DNA from: Hyphomicrobiales bacterium
Lineage (GTDB): Bacteria; Pseudomonadota; Alphaproteobacteria; Rhizobiales; TMED25
Length of the DNA stretch: 64,000 nucleotides
Assembly: GCA_029245795.1 (NCBI GenBank)
Contig: JAQWOP010000024.1
Coordinates: 124,001 to 188,000, forward strand
Direction: 5' to 3'
A program made the position numbers and the translations under genes. Below are positions 31,990 to 37,476 of the stretch, piece after piece (within the stretch, counting starts at the first letter, position 1; each line of letters starts with the position of its first letter). Under the pieces are notes generated by a model. The model did not search any database, had not been told where the DNA came from, and saw nothing but the letters and a program-made list of their open reading frames with translations.

Positions 31990-33372
31990 ATGACGAATAA
32001 AATGTGGGGTGGAAGGTTTTCATCTAAAACTGATACACTCATTGAAAAAATAAATGCATCAATTAAATTTGATTATCGTTTAGCCATGCATGATATTGAT
32101 GGTTCAATAGCTCATGTAAATATGCTAGCAGATTGTTCTATTATAAAAAAAAAAGAAGCCAAACAAATAATCCTTGGTTTAGAAGAAATTAGAAAAGAAA
32201 TACTCGAAGATAAATTTGAATATAAGATTGAACTTGAAGATATTCATATGAATATTGAAAGTAGACTTACTGAAATAATTGGTCCAGTTGCAGGAAAAAT
32301 GCACACAGCTAGATCAAGAAACGACCAAATTGCTACAGATGTGAGACTCTATTTAAATGAAACTATAAATGAAATTATAGTTTTAATTAAAGATTTACAG
32401 AAAGATCTATCTCAAAAAGCTTTATCTAATTTTGATACCATAATGCCAGGTTATACTCACCTTCAGATTGCTCAGCCAATTACATTTGGACATCATTTAT
32501 TATCCTATGTTGAGTTATTTAATAGAGATAAGTTAAGATTCCTCGACTCCTTAGAAAGACTGGATGAATGCCCACTTGGTGCCGCTGCCTTAGCTGGAAC
32601 ATCCTATCCAATTGACAGATTCCTATCCTCAAAAGCATTAGGCTTTAGCAAACCAATGGCAAATTCCCTAGATGCCGTGTCATCAAGAGATATGCTTTTA
32701 GAAACATTATCAAATTTAAGTATCTTATCTGTGAATTTATCTAGGCTAGCAGAAGAAATTATACTATGGGTCTCATCAGAGTTTAATTTTGTTTGTTTAT
32801 CAGACAATCTAACAACAGGCTCATCCATTATGCCTCAAAAGCGTAATCCTGACGGAGCAGAGCTAATACGATCAAAAGCAGGACGTGTAATTGGATCTTT
32901 GAATACTCTTTTCATAGTCTTAAAAGGTCTCCCTTTAGCTTATAGCAAAGATTTACAGGAAGACAAAGAACCTCTTTTCGACGCAATTGATAGCGTTAAC
33001 TTATCACTTAAGGTTATGACGATTATAATAAAAGATATTCAACCAAATAAAGATATAATGCTGCAAGCAGCAAAAAAAGGGTTTGCAATTGCAACTGATA
33101 TTGCAGATATTTTAGTCCAAGAACTAAATATTCCCTTTAGAGAGTCGCATAAAATTGTTGGTTCAATTGTAGCATATGCCGAGAAGAGAAATAAAAATCT
33201 TGAGGAATTAGATATCGCTGATTACAAAGAGCTTGATCAGAGAATTACAATAGATCTAGTAAATAAGATTTCATTTGATACTATAATTCATAATAAACTA
33301 TCTTTTGGAGGTACATCCCCTCAAAATGTTAATAAAGAAGCAAAAAAATGGTTAAAGAGATTAAATGTCTAG
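31990..33372 (+). CDS. argH: Argininosuccinate lyase
   Basis: Last step of arginine biosynthesis: cleaves argininosuccinate to arginine and fumarate. The 460-residue length is normal for the fumarase/aspartase superfamily. The N-terminal MTNKMWGGRFSSKTDTL, the substrate-binding TARSRNDQIATD (about residues 106-117) and the superfamily signature GSSIMPQKRNPD (about residue 278) are intact. ATG 31990. It is followed directly by the small lipoprotein gene and lysA, a conserved alphaproteobacterial order. Confidence 0.98.
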   Translation: MTNKMWGGRFSSKTDTLIEKINASIKFDYRLAMHDIDGSIAHVNMLADCSIIKKKEAKQIILGLEEIRKEILEDKFEYKIELEDIHMNIESRLTEIIGPVAGKMHTARSRNDQIATDVRLYLNETINEIIVLIKDLQKDLSQKALSNFDTIMPGYTHLQIAQPITFGHHLLSYVELFNRDKLRFLDSLERLDECPLGAAALAGTSYPIDRFLSSKALGFSKPMANSLDAVSSRDMLLETLSNLSILSVNLSRLAEEIILWVSSEFNFVCLSDNLTTGSSIMPQKRNPDGAELIRSKAGRVIGSLNTLFIVLKGLPLAYSKDLQEDKEPLFDAIDSVNLSLKVMTIIIKDIQPNKDIMLQAAKKGFAIATDIADILVQELNIPFRESHKIVGSIVAYAEKRNKNLEELDIADYKELDQRITIDLVNKISFDTIIHNKLSFGGTSPQNVNKEAKKWLKRLNV

Positions 33373-33373
33373 T

Positions 33374-33526
33374 ATGAATAAAATATTGCCAAAGAATATA
33401 GTTTTAAGATTTATATTAATATTGTTAATTTCATTCATACTCTCATCATGTGGAGTAAAAGGTGATATTGAATTAGATCAAGAACCTAGTTTAAATAAAC
33501 CTACTATTTTTGATAAATTGATTTAA
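33374..33526 (+). CDS. lptM: LptM-like small outer-membrane lipoprotein
   Basis: A 50-residue protein starting at ATG 33374, just after the argH stop (an in-frame ATG at 33365 overlaps argH). The basic start is followed by a hydrophobic stretch (VLRFILILLISFIL) and a lipobox ending in LSSCG, so lipidation at Cys29 is expected. The mature part is about 22 residues. Position between argH and lysA and length match the LptM/YifL family, which helps the LptD translocon mature. The lptCAB genes are 28 kb away in this window. The assignment rests on position and lipobox because the mature part is too short for motif evidence. Confidence 0.75.
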   Translation: MNKILPKNIVLRFILILLISFILSSCGVKGDIELDQEPSLNKPTIFDKLI

Positions 33527-33572: not shown

Positions 33573-34829
33573 ATGACTTCAATTGAATATAAAAACAATC
33601 AATTACATATTGAAAAGTTGAATATACAAGAAATAACTAATTCAAATCAGACCCCTTTCTATTGTTATTCTGCAAGCTATATTGAAAATCAATATGATGA
33701 ACTTCATTCAGCATTTGATATGGATATTAAAATATTCTATGCAATGAAAGCTAATTCAAACCTTTCAATAATAAAATTACTATTAAATAAAGGGTCTGGG
33801 ATCGATGTAGTTTCAGGAGGTGAGATTCAACGATCAATAAGTGCTGGAGCAAAAGGTAAAGATATTATTTATTCTGGAATAGGTAAAACAGATGAAGAAT
33901 TGAAGTACGCAATTGAGTCAAAAATCCATTGTATTAATATTGAATCACAATCCGAACTAATTAGAATAAATGATTTATCAAAATCTCTTGGAGTTAAGCA
34001 AAATATAGCAATTAGGATAAATCCTGATGTTGATGCAAAAACACATATTAAAATAACTACCGGAAAAGCAGAAAATAAATTTGGTATTGAATTTGATTAT
34101 GCAAAGAGTATGTATAACATTGCTTCAGATCTTAAAAATATAAATATTTCAGGTATTTCGGTTCATATAGGTAGCCAAATCACTAGCCTTAAACCTTTTA
34201 AAAAAGCCTACACGATTATATATGATATGATTGAAGATCTAAGGAATAATGGGCATAAAATTGATCACGTAGACCTTGGAGGAGGTCTTGGAGTATCATA
34301 TTCTGCAGAAGAAAATATTCCAACTTTCAAAGAATATGCAAATCTTATCCAGAGTATATTTGGTAATTCAAATATAAAAGTTTATATTGAGCCTGGCAGA
34401 CTTATGGTTGCAAATAGTGGTCTACTTATTACAAAAGTTATAGATATAAAAACAACAACACAAAAAACTTTTATTATTGTTGATGCAGGTATGAATGATT
34501 TCATAAGACCAACTCTTTACGGTTCTTACCATGAAATATTGCCAGTAAAAAATAACCTTGGTACATCAAATAAAATTTATGACATAGTTGGTCCAATATG
34601 TGAAACAGGAGACTATTTTGCAAAGAATAGAAAGATGAATTCTGTAAAAATTGGGAGTCTTATTGCAATCAAATCCGTTGGGGCTTATGGTTCTGTCCAG
34701 TCTTCTAATTATAATTCTAGACCCCAAATAGCAGAAATATTAGTAAAAGACGATAAATATGAAATCATCAGGGATAGAGTAGAAGTGAAAGATCTTATAA
34801 AACAAGAAAAGATAGCTACTTGGTTATGA
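33573..34829 (+). CDS. lysA: Diaminopimelate decarboxylase
   Basis: PLP enzyme making L-lysine from meso-diaminopimelate. The 418-residue protein has the PLP lysine in KIFYAMKANSN (about residues 50-60), the glycine-rich phosphate-binding stretch HVDLGGGLGVSY, IYIEPGRL-type EPGR (VYIEPGRLMVA) and the C-terminal catalytic Cys in GPICETGDYFA. All are consistent with activity. It follows lptM by about 45 bases. The ftsE gene begins 7 bases after its stop. Confidence 0.97.
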   Translation: MTSIEYKNNQLHIEKLNIQEITNSNQTPFYCYSASYIENQYDELHSAFDMDIKIFYAMKANSNLSIIKLLLNKGSGIDVVSGGEIQRSISAGAKGKDIIYSGIGKTDEELKYAIESKIHCINIESQSELIRINDLSKSLGVKQNIAIRINPDVDAKTHIKITTGKAENKFGIEFDYAKSMYNIASDLKNINISGISVHIGSQITSLKPFKKAYTIIYDMIEDLRNNGHKIDHVDLGGGLGVSYSAEENIPTFKEYANLIQSIFGNSNIKVYIEPGRLMVANSGLLITKVIDIKTTTQKTFIIVDAGMNDFIRPTLYGSYHEILPVKNNLGTSNKIYDIVGPICETGDYFAKNRKMNSVKIGSLIAIKSVGAYGSVQSSNYNSRPQIAEILVKDDKYEIIRDRVEVKDLIKQEKIATWL

Positions 34830-34836
34830 TTTTGAG

Positions 34837-35520
34837 ATGAAAATTTATAACAGTCTCATAAAATTAGAAAATGTTTACCATAGATATAGTATTACTAGGG
34901 ATATCTTTAATGATATATCTATAGATATTAATGAAGGTGGTTTTTATTTTATTACTGGATCATCCGGCTCTGGAAAAACTACTCTATTAAAATTAATATC
35001 GTCTTCGCTCAAACCAAGTAAAGGTAATATTCTATTTCTTGGTCAAAAAATGAATGATATTCAAAAAAAGGATCTTTATAAAATAAAGAGGCAAATAGGA
35101 TTTGTATTCCAAGATTTCAGATTACTTCCTCATTTAACAACATATGAAAATGTTGCATTACCGTTAAGGATTCAAAATAAAAATGAAAAAGATTATAAAA
35201 AAGATGTTGTGGAATTATTAAGTTGGGTAAATCTTGAGCATTGCATCCATTCTTATCCAAATTATCTATCTGGAGGAGAGCAGCAAAGAGCCGCCATAGC
35301 GAGAGCGGTCATATCTTCACCAAAAATTATTTTAGCAGATGAACCAACAGGTAATGTTGATCAAACAAATTCATCAAAGATTCTAACCTTATTTCAAGAA
35401 ATGAATAAGTTGGGAACAACAATTATTATCGCAACACATGATGAAAAATTATTATCAGAAATTAATGCCCCTATTATCGAAATCATCGATCAAAAAATTA
35501 ACATAAATAATAGAAAATGA
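34837..35520 (+). CDS. ftsE: Cell-division ABC ATPase FtsE
   Basis: Cytosolic ATPase that drives FtsX to regulate cell-wall hydrolysis at the division site. The 227-residue length is normal. Walker A is GSSGSGKTTLLK (about residues 41-52), the signature is LSGGEQQRAAIARA and Walker B is IILADEPTGNVD. The start GTG/ATG choice is simple: ATG 34837. The 3' end overlaps ftsX by four bases (ATGA), so the pair is translationally coupled. It is more similar in motif to FtsE than to LolD, and its partner confirms that. Confidence 0.93.
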   Translation: MKIYNSLIKLENVYHRYSITRDIFNDISIDINEGGFYFITGSSGSGKTTLLKLISSSLKPSKGNILFLGQKMNDIQKKDLYKIKRQIGFVFQDFRLLPHLTTYENVALPLRIQNKNEKDYKKDVVELLSWVNLEHCIHSYPNYLSGGEQQRAAIARAVISSPKIILADEPTGNVDQTNSSKILTLFQEMNKLGTTIIIATHDEKLLSEINAPIIEIIDQKININNRK

Positions 35521-36152
35521 ATTTATTAAATAAAGTTTTAAATCAGTCAGAAGAAAAAAAGAGAATAAAACAGCTTGCACCAAAACCAGCGAATATTATA
35601 TCTCATGATGCATTCTATAATAGATATCTTCTAATAATGATTACCCTTTTATGTTATTTAAAATCGATATTACTTAGTTCCTTCCTAATACTTATGAAAA
35701 ACCCTGAGTTCTCTCAACTATCAATGAGTTTAATACAAATAAGTCTGATATCTTGGTGTTTTCTAATTCTATTGATTTTAATTATTATTGCTTACATCAT
35801 CACATATGGAACACATACATCTATTATGTACAATCGCAATACTATAAATCTATTGATGTTGATAGGTGCGTCTAATAATTTTATAATAAAAAGAGTCATA
35901 TTTTCATTTGCAAAAATAGGTATTCTCGCTGGCTTAATGGGTTCTCTTCTGGGATTTTTGACGATATTAACCATGTACCCATTTTTAAGCCAAATAAACT
36001 CCCTAATTAATGATATTTCAAATAATGTCATGGTTTATGATGTGTCAATTTTTGACGATTTTACTATATTTTTTGCAATACCTCTTTTTTCTTTTTTTAT
36101 ATGTGTTGTTTCTTCATATTTTACAATTAAAAAAATTATAAAGAATTACTAA
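35517..36152 (+). CDS. ftsX: FtsX-family permease lacking the periplasmic domain between TM1 and TM2
   Basis: Membrane partner of FtsE. At 211 residues it is much shorter than normal FtsX (about 300). Four membrane segments are clear (about 36-59, 72-97, 127-153 and 183-204), and NLLMLIGASNNFIIKRV is the typical FtsX cytosolic motif. Between segments 1 and 2 there are only about 12 residues (KNPEFSQLSMSL), where other FtsX proteins carry a domain of 100 or more that binds hydrolase activators such as EnvC. The frame is continuous and the overlap with ftsE is intact, so this is a real short form and not a frameshift. Confidence 0.88.
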   Translation: MNLLNKVLNQSEEKKRIKQLAPKPANIISHDAFYNRYLLIMITLLCYLKSILLSSFLILMKNPEFSQLSMSLIQISLISWCFLILLILIIIAYIITYGTHTSIMYNRNTINLLMLIGASNNFIIKRVIFSFAKIGILAGLMGSLLGFLTILTMYPFLSQINSLINDISNNVMVYDVSIFDDFTIFFAIPLFSFFICVVSSYFTIKKIIKNY

Positions 36153-36165
36153 TAATAATTAAGTT

Positions 36166-36765
36166 ATGACAAAAAGAAACACATCCCATATATATATGAA
36201 TATAATATTTTTCATATGTCTCGGCGTCATATCATTGGATATCATATCCTTTAGTAAATCATTAAAAGGACCTCTGAAATCATTTGAAGAACTAGTAAAT
36301 ATTGATGGTGTGGTCGTGTTTACAGGAGGTGAGAATAGGGTACAGAGCGCTATTGAATTACTTTCTAATAATATAGGTAAGAGATTACTTATATCAGGAG
36401 TAAACCCAAAAACAAAAAAAATAGATATTTTCTATCGGCTGAAATCAGATAATCAACTTCTGGAATGTTGTGTTGACCTTGGCAAGAATGCTAATAATAC
36501 TTTTGAAAATGCGACTGAAACAATCCAATGGGTAAATGAAAATAATTTTAAAAACTTAGTTCTCGTTACATCTAATTATCATATGAAAAGAAGCTTATTT
36601 ATTCTAAACCAAATGGGACCTAATATTAGTTTTATTCCAGTTCATGTTGAAAGCTCTCTTCTAAGAGATAAAAAGACTTCCCTACAAGAAAAAATTAAAA
36701 CTCTTAGTATTGAATATTTAAAGTATATGTACACAAGACTTTATTTTTTGTTCCAACTGAATTAA
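36166..36765 (+). CDS. YdcF/ElyC (DUF218) family protein
   Basis: A 199-residue protein with one N-terminal membrane anchor (about residues 9-26). The DUF218 pattern follows: VDGVVVFTGGENRVQSAIELL, RLLISGV, NTFENATETIQW and LVTSNYHMKRSLF. Members act in envelope polysaccharide metabolism; the ElyC role is in peptidoglycan/ECA assembly. The fold is usually cytosolic or periplasmic; here the anchor suggests a periplasmic domain. It lies 13 bases after ftsX and 9 bases before plsC, so it is probably in one envelope operon with ftsEX. Confidence 0.85.
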   Translation: MTKRNTSHIYMNIIFFICLGVISLDIISFSKSLKGPLKSFEELVNIDGVVVFTGGENRVQSAIELLSNNIGKRLLISGVNPKTKKIDIFYRLKSDNQLLECCVDLGKNANNTFENATETIQWVNENNFKNLVLVTSNYHMKRSLFILNQMGPNISFIPVHVESSLLRDKKTSLQEKIKTLSIEYLKYMYTRLYFLFQLN

Positions 36766-36774
36766 ATTTAAAAA

Positions 36775-37476
36775 ATGTTTTTAAGATCGCTTTTATATTA
36801 TTTATTATTTTCATTGTATTTCCTAGGTTTTGGTATCGTATTTCTACCTTTATTTATAATGCCAAAATCAATAGGTATAAGCGTGATGAGATTTTGGGCC
36901 AGATCATCACAAAAACTTCTATTTTATTTATGCAAAATAGATTTTGAGGTTATTGGTATGGATAAGATTCCAAATCAAAAATTTATTATTGCCTCAAAAC
37001 ATCAATCGGCATGGGAAACAATAAATTTTATTCATATATTAAAAGAAGCTCCAATAATGATATTTAAAAGAGAACTTCTATTTATTCCTTTTTTTGGATT
37101 ATATGCGCTAAAATTTGGTCATATAGCTATAAATAGAAAAGTTGGTTTATCTTCAATCAAGAGTATGATTAAGAAGGCAAAAGAGACACTTGACAATAAC
37201 AGACCAATTCTTATTTTCCCTGAGGGAACAAGGCAAGATATCTTATCAGAATCCACATACAAGAGAGGCATATTAGCGTTATATAAAAGTCTTAATATAC
37301 CTTGTGTTCCGGTTGCATTAAATTCAGGAAAATATTGGCCAAAAAATAGTATTAAGAAAATACCAGGAAAAATAACTGTTGAATTCTTGGATCCAATTCC
37401 CCCCGGGATAGATGATAATGAATTTATGAGAATATTAAAGGAGCAAATAGATACTGCATCGAAAAGATTGATTTGA
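36775..37476 (+). CDS. plsC: 1-acyl-sn-glycerol-3-phosphate acyltransferase
   Basis: Second acylation of glycerol-3-phosphate to phosphatidic acid at the inner membrane. The 233-residue length is normal. The acyltransferase motif I reads SKHQSAWET (Glu in place of the usual Asp of HX4D, which I recall as a common alphaproteobacterial variant), motif III is FPEGTRQ and motif IV VPVALNSG. The N-terminus has hydrophobic segments. It ends the ftsEX-DUF218-plsC run and converges on tyrC with a 12-base gap. Confidence 0.92.
   Translation: MFLRSLLYYLLFSLYFLGFGIVFLPLFIMPKSIGISVMRFWARSSQKLLFYLCKIDFEVIGMDKIPNQKFIIASKHQSAWETINFIHILKEAPIMIFKRELLFIPFFGLYALKFGHIAINRKVGLSSIKSMIKKAKETLDNNRPILIFPEGTRQDILSESTYKRGILALYKSLNIPCVPVALNSGKYWPKNSIKKIPGKITVEFLDPIPPGIDDNEFMRILKEQIDTASKRLI

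Follow-up and report, generated by a model that had tools for sequence, protein, structure and literature searches.

An FtsX without its periplasmic domain (PLD) is encoded in the window, by which we mean the whole stretch of 64,000 nucleotides analysed here, and the same short protein is found in every sampled genome of its family, together with an intact FtsE and without a detectable EnvC/LdpF-type activator or Amidase_3 (AmiC). The usual definition of FtsX rests on a periplasmic domain through which wall hydrolases are recruited and switched. The absence of domain, activator and amidase alike, with FtsE and the FtsX core conserved, presents a natural case of separation of function, in which the second job of FtsEX, the hydrolase-independent control of the Z-ring and FtsA, becomes directly testable. 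The available portions of the open-licence literature yielded no report of a naturally PLD-less FtsX, and a conserved form of this kind is apparently unreported.

FtsX of the window and its missing domain

The features discussed are the following (positions in the window).

33573-34829, + strand: lysA, upstream gene-order marker (TIGR01048, over cut-off)
34837-35520, + strand: ftsE, ATPase subunit, 227 aa (TIGR02673, 267.5 bits against a cut-off of 264.85)
35517-36152, + strand: ftsX without PLD, 211 aa (ORF, profile, alignment and fold match to solved FtsX)
35613-35699, + strand: TM1 helix of FtsX, residues 33-61 (AlphaFold2 model; HMM piece 13-64)
35703-35732, + strand: junction at the missing PLD of about 114 residues, residues 63-72, PEFSQLSMSL (alignment A2)
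35835-35861, + strand: coupling helix between TM2 and TM3, residues 107-115 (AlphaFold2 model; conserved residues around the helix)
36009-36041, + strand: second periplasmic loop, residues 165-175, not enlarged (model and alignment A2)
36166-36765, + strand: DUF218 (SanA/ElyC/YdcF-like) gene directly downstream of ftsX (PF02698, 52.8 bits)
36775-37476, + strand: plsC-like acyltransferase gene, gene-order marker (PF01553)

The ATG of ftsX follows directly on ftsE and overlaps its stop codon by 4 bp. FtsE has its Walker A motif, LSGGE signature, Walker B motif (DEPTGN) and H-loop (ATHD), and the ATPase motifs are intact in 30/30 loci compared. The AlphaFold2 model of FtsX (mean pLDDT 76, lowest in the second periplasmic loop) has TM1 at residues 33-61, a loop at 62-66, TM2 at 67-105, a coupling helix at 107-115 that we take, from solved FtsEX, to be the expected contact with FtsE, TM3 at 120-164 and TM4 at 176-210. 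The solved structures that it matches best in fold are those of V. cholerae and E. coli FtsX (8tzj, 8x61).

Alignment A2 and the HMM built on it comprise 14 FtsX rows, 11 long and 3 short, the window sequence among them. The window FtsX aligns to ordinary FtsX through the end of TM1 and then again from TM2, and is matched by the HMM in two pieces (model positions 13-64 and 179-321); the stretch skipped holds the 114-residue PLD in 11/11 long rows and 9-10 residues in 3/3 short rows, with 8-10 in its place in the window protein. Model and alignment together leave some 5-12 residues between TM1 and TM2, in agreement with the first-pass annotation, which had counted about 12 and had described the frame, the overlap with ftsE and the other three segments as intact; the 4-bp overlap, the lack of an internal stop and the alignment of TM2-TM4 bear this out. 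An HMM of the PLD alone gave no match below E 1 in the window, and as a positive control it matched 16/16 long-FtsX loci. Pfam FtsX_ECD (PF18075) has no match in the window's genome, and since this model also misses the Caulobacter control it is uninformative for alphaproteobacteria. Pfam PF02687 matches residues 82-209 (32.9 bits against a cut-off of 25.5), which is the C-terminal core alone. The best NCBIfam match, TIGR00439, covers model positions 166-292 only and reaches 30.1 bits against a cut-off of 255; an ordinary long FtsX of a relative (L018) scores just 56.4 bits, which makes the cut-off of no diagnostic use within the order Rhizobiales. Judged from its sequence and predicted fold, the ORF is a true FtsX with a four-TM core and coupling helix, homologous over TM1 and TM2-TM4.

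Spread and conservation of the short FtsX

Our sample of the order comprised 61 genomes including the window's own, 14 from the same family (12 of one genus, the window's among them, and 2 of another) and 47 from other families. A short ftsX frame, 212-222 aa long and with no stop codon inside it, is present in 14/14 family genomes, such that the deletion is shared by relatives in two genera, a point that the first-pass annotation had proposed for checking. Outside the family FtsX was matched in 34/47 genomes, with frames of 311-575 aa. The named records at 13 family loci are TMED25, OCS116-cluster, 'Rhodobiaceae' and Hyphomicrobiales assemblies (marine Rhizobiales), with genome sizes in the family of 0.9-1.6 Mb; most record titles say MAG, and the AG- and AH-numbered assemblies are presumably single-cell genomes. 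The occurrence of the same short frame in 14 genomes led us to reject a frameshift, a contig gap or mis-binning. A separately encoded PLD was rejected near ftsX, since the PLD HMM found none in the window or the family loci and the gene beside ftsX encodes a DUF218 protein, which also follows many long ftsX genes. Against a PLD elsewhere in the window's genome (G000) there is indirect evidence: the search with A2 gave two matches there, positions not listed, and two would be expected if each half of the short FtsX gave one.

The short proteins of the two genera are just 32-34% identical, and the loss of the PLD is therefore old and has been kept. Purifying selection is indicated in 9/10 pairs of short ftsX genes (dN/dS 0.07-0.36); the exceptional pair has a dN/dS of 0.935 at a dS of 0.027. 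The order lysA-ftsE-ftsX-DUF218-plsC is kept in the family loci, with lysA upstream of ftsE in 14/14, and the contig of one locus (L011) ends within the DUF218 gene. Just upstream of lysA in the window lies a 53-aa lipoprotein-like ORF (33365-33526, + strand) whose match to LptM is weak and falls below the cut-off (E 0.007).

At the level of the class, the A2 profile matched 226/289 genomes. Frames were compared in 189 of the 225 matched genomes outside the family (150 listed and 40 hand-picked, mostly with low scores, one being in both), and among these 189 no short FtsX was found: the frames are at least 279 aa, except in G207 and G287, where the gene is split over contigs and the matches still take in PLD positions. 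A search of the phylum with a short-FtsX profile, which is insensitive to distant FtsX, matched 108/398 genomes, with a full-length match in the window's genome only. The 63/289 class genomes without an FtsX match to A2 include the near-complete G090, G126 and G157; in such genomes FtsEX may have disappeared or diverged strongly. Taken together, the deletion of the PLD probably dates to the common ancestor of a single family of marine Rhizobiales with streamlined genomes (TMED25/OCS116-type). We rejected genome reduction as a sufficient cause by itself, as genomes of 0.8-0.9 Mb (G128, G313, G332) retain the PLD.

Activator, amidase and other wall enzymes

Partners were compared between the 14 family genomes and 20 relatives chosen by hand from the 34 FtsX-positive genomes of the order. 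Amidase_3 was found in 0/14 family genomes and 20/20 chosen relatives. The EnvC/LdpF-type activator is likewise present in 20/20 chosen relatives (in G059 as a contig-end fragment), and profile A3, built from 15 of these proteins, finds it in 0/14 family genomes; four weak A3 matches in the family fall on a NlpD/DipM-type LytM gene. The first-pass annotation had held that the known route of hydrolase recruitment is closed to this FtsEX and had asked whether EnvC or an equivalent is missing from the genome; the joint absence of activator and amidase in all 14 genomes supports and strengthens that claim.

M23/LytM proteins number 0-2 per genome in the family vs 2-6 in the chosen relatives. From each relative we examined one M23 gene, choosing the one with the longer domain span, and in 20/20 it has a degenerate EnvC/LdpF-type domain, mostly with a charged, coiled-coil-like N-terminal half. 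The two M23 genes of the window's genome encode a NlpD/DipM/ActS-like lipoprotein with two LysM domains (L094) and a MepM/Shy-like endopeptidase whose active site is apparently complete. One soluble lytic transglycosylase (SLT) and FtsA are kept in 8/8 family genomes tested. In the window's genome FtsZ, FtsQ, MurB and Ddl stand with FtsA, and FtsZ ends in EIPSFLKRQ, which we take to be a canonical C-terminal tail. A single SPOR domain was found in 4/8 family genomes tested and none was detected in the other four (G000, which is the window's, G003, G005 and G011); three comparators have 2-5. SPOR domains bind amidase-processed wall, according to an excerpt of PMC7822825. FtsA and FtsZ are present in the window's genome, but it may lack an FtsN-type activator or carry one that escapes recognition. 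The hydrolase families searched were Amidase_3, M23/LytM and SLT, and an unrelated hydrolase, for example of the Amidase_2, NlpC/P60 or CHAP family, may serve as FtsX partner. These findings raise the question of how the septal wall is split in cells without Amidase_3.

The loss of partners and the loss of the PLD are not strictly coupled. We also screened 69 other genomes of the class, selected because they are small, score low for FtsX or have no match to it; Amidase_3 is present in 48 of them, and 14 of the 50 that bear FtsX are without it. All 12 of these with a listed frame (that is, all but G144 and G280) have an FtsX of at least 292 aa, for which reason we rejected the rule that loss of the amidase leads to loss of the PLD. 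LdpF in the 14 is clear in 4, weak in 7 (E 1e-6 to 1e-15, mostly over the LytM part) and absent in 3. The three FtsX-bearing genomes with neither an Amidase_3 nor an LdpF match are G084 and G193, both with a long FtsX, and G144, where the length is not listed; the long FtsX of the first two implies that partner loss does not force PLD loss. FtsX in these three genomes may use another periplasmic partner. Within the family the PLD loss counts as one evolutionary event, which places the co-loss beyond statistical testing there.

A proposed role for FtsEX without periplasmic output

We consider it probable, on balance, that the short FtsEX is the natural counterpart of the E. coli FtsEX loop deletion, kept for control of the Z-ring and FtsA without periplasmic output. 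Several reports provide the basis. In Caulobacter, the outer loop of FtsX binds the coiled coil of LdpF, FtsE focuses the Z-ring, and ftsE can be deleted and ftsX cannot, as described in the accessible part of PMC5607218. In E. coli, FtsE binds the FtsZ tail and FtsX interacts with and acts on FtsA, and FtsEX-delta-lp, in which a deletion in the large loop abolishes EnvC binding, still supports division (PMC7343993, excerpted text). A section of PMC8416486 describes the EnvC-AmiC pair of Agrobacterium as serving mainly polar growth patterning, and a lineage that abandons this mode of growth might therefore discard the pair.

In the mechanism that we propose, deletion of the PLD accompanies the absence of the whole FtsX-EnvC/LdpF-AmiC arm, and what remains is an FtsE ATPase on a four-helix FtsX membrane core. 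By analogy with the systems above, we infer that FtsE acts on FtsZ and FtsX on FtsA in the family. FtsE would engage the C-terminal peptide of FtsZ, with FtsEX sitting on the Z-ring and anchoring it to the membrane, and FtsEX would act on FtsA to promote assembly and pace septal wall synthesis. The short FtsEX itself would have no periplasmic output, and separation of the cells would depend on the wall proteins still present, namely a LytM regulator of NlpD/DipM type, an M23 endopeptidase and a soluble lytic transglycosylase. Our confidence is evenly poised on a broader statement, that FtsEX can exist as a purely cytoplasmic and membrane regulator of the divisome, in a family that has shed PLD, EnvC/LdpF and AmiC, or else that its output has been rerouted to the neighbouring DUF218 envelope protein.

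Signalling of the short FtsX to this neighbouring DUF218 (SanA/ElyC-like) protein instead of an EnvC-type activator is, as a reading by itself, unlikely. The DUF218 gene is the next gene after ftsX in 14/14 family loci (in L011 cut by the contig end), and deletion of sanA, a DUF218 gene of E. coli, suppresses growth defects of ftsE and ftsX mutants, as stated in part of PMC12176290. Among 14 loci with long open frames checked for fusion, FtsX and DUF218 form one uninterrupted in-frame ORF in two relatives of the order, L030 (943-2607, + strand) and L154 (1155-2867, - strand), and only in these. However, both fusion proteins retain the PLD, so the link to DUF218 is independent of PLD loss. In the 16 long-FtsX loci (L015-L030) DUF218 is nearby in 11, ftsX leads directly to plsC without DUF218 in 3 (L022, L023, L026) and neither arrangement is seen in 2 (one cut short). 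DUF218 is thus a neighbour of FtsX in general and no response particular to the missing PLD, and nothing in the family DUF218 protein suggests a new binding surface.

A little less probable still is that the short FtsX keeps a periplasmic partner by its second loop or the tips of TM1 and TM2, e.g. the retained NlpD/DipM-type LytM lipoprotein. Such a LytM protein, carrying two LysM domains, is indeed present (L094), and P155 and Q159, just ahead of the second loop, are invariant across 13 short FtsX sequences. However, the loop is about 2 residues shorter than in long FtsX (A2), and it is the region of the model with the lowest confidence. The first-pass annotation had offered a partner acting through this loop, or another role for FtsEX; the former gained no positive support and the latter is the better half, such that its interpretation as a whole is partly supported and its underlying observation confirmed.

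That FtsEX is a decaying remnant en route to loss from a reduced genome is very improbable and largely refuted: the family genomes are small and FtsX goes unmatched in 63 class genomes, but dN/dS is well under 1 in all pairs except the one with very low dS, and both genera have kept the frame, the FtsE motifs and the gene order. That the gene pair has left cell division and now exports small molecules or lipids, as a member of the MacB/LolCDE superfamily, is similarly far-fetched. In its favour, a search of solved chains with the short-FtsX profile ranks LolF a little ahead of FtsX (0.00043 vs 0.002), but the window FtsE passes the FtsE model and not the LolD model, the best fold matches are FtsX, and no periplasmic substrate-handling domain is left.

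Comparison with known systems

The preferred reading, an FtsEX kept for control of the Z-ring and FtsA, can be set against three known systems. With the canonical FtsEX of E. coli, Caulobacter and V. cholerae, the window pair shares an FtsE with all ATPase motifs, the ftsE-ftsX overlap, the core of TM1 and TM2-coupling helix-TM3-TM4, and the best fold matches; it differs in that its FtsX has no PLD and its genome no detected EnvC/LdpF or Amidase_3. The Rhizobiales EnvC-AmiC pathway of Agrobacterium and Sinorhizobium belongs to the same order, and both of its parts are kept in 20/20 relatives examined, whereas the pathway, which the excerpt of PMC8416486 links to polar-growth patterning in Agrobacterium, is missing in the family. 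The third system is the E. coli FtsEX-delta-lp laboratory mutant, which also has a deletion in the large periplasmic loop of FtsX, has lost EnvC binding and, in the text available from PMC7343993, continues to divide. In contrast to that engineered mutant, the deletion here is natural and family-wide, the entire domain is gone, and the downstream partners are gone with it.
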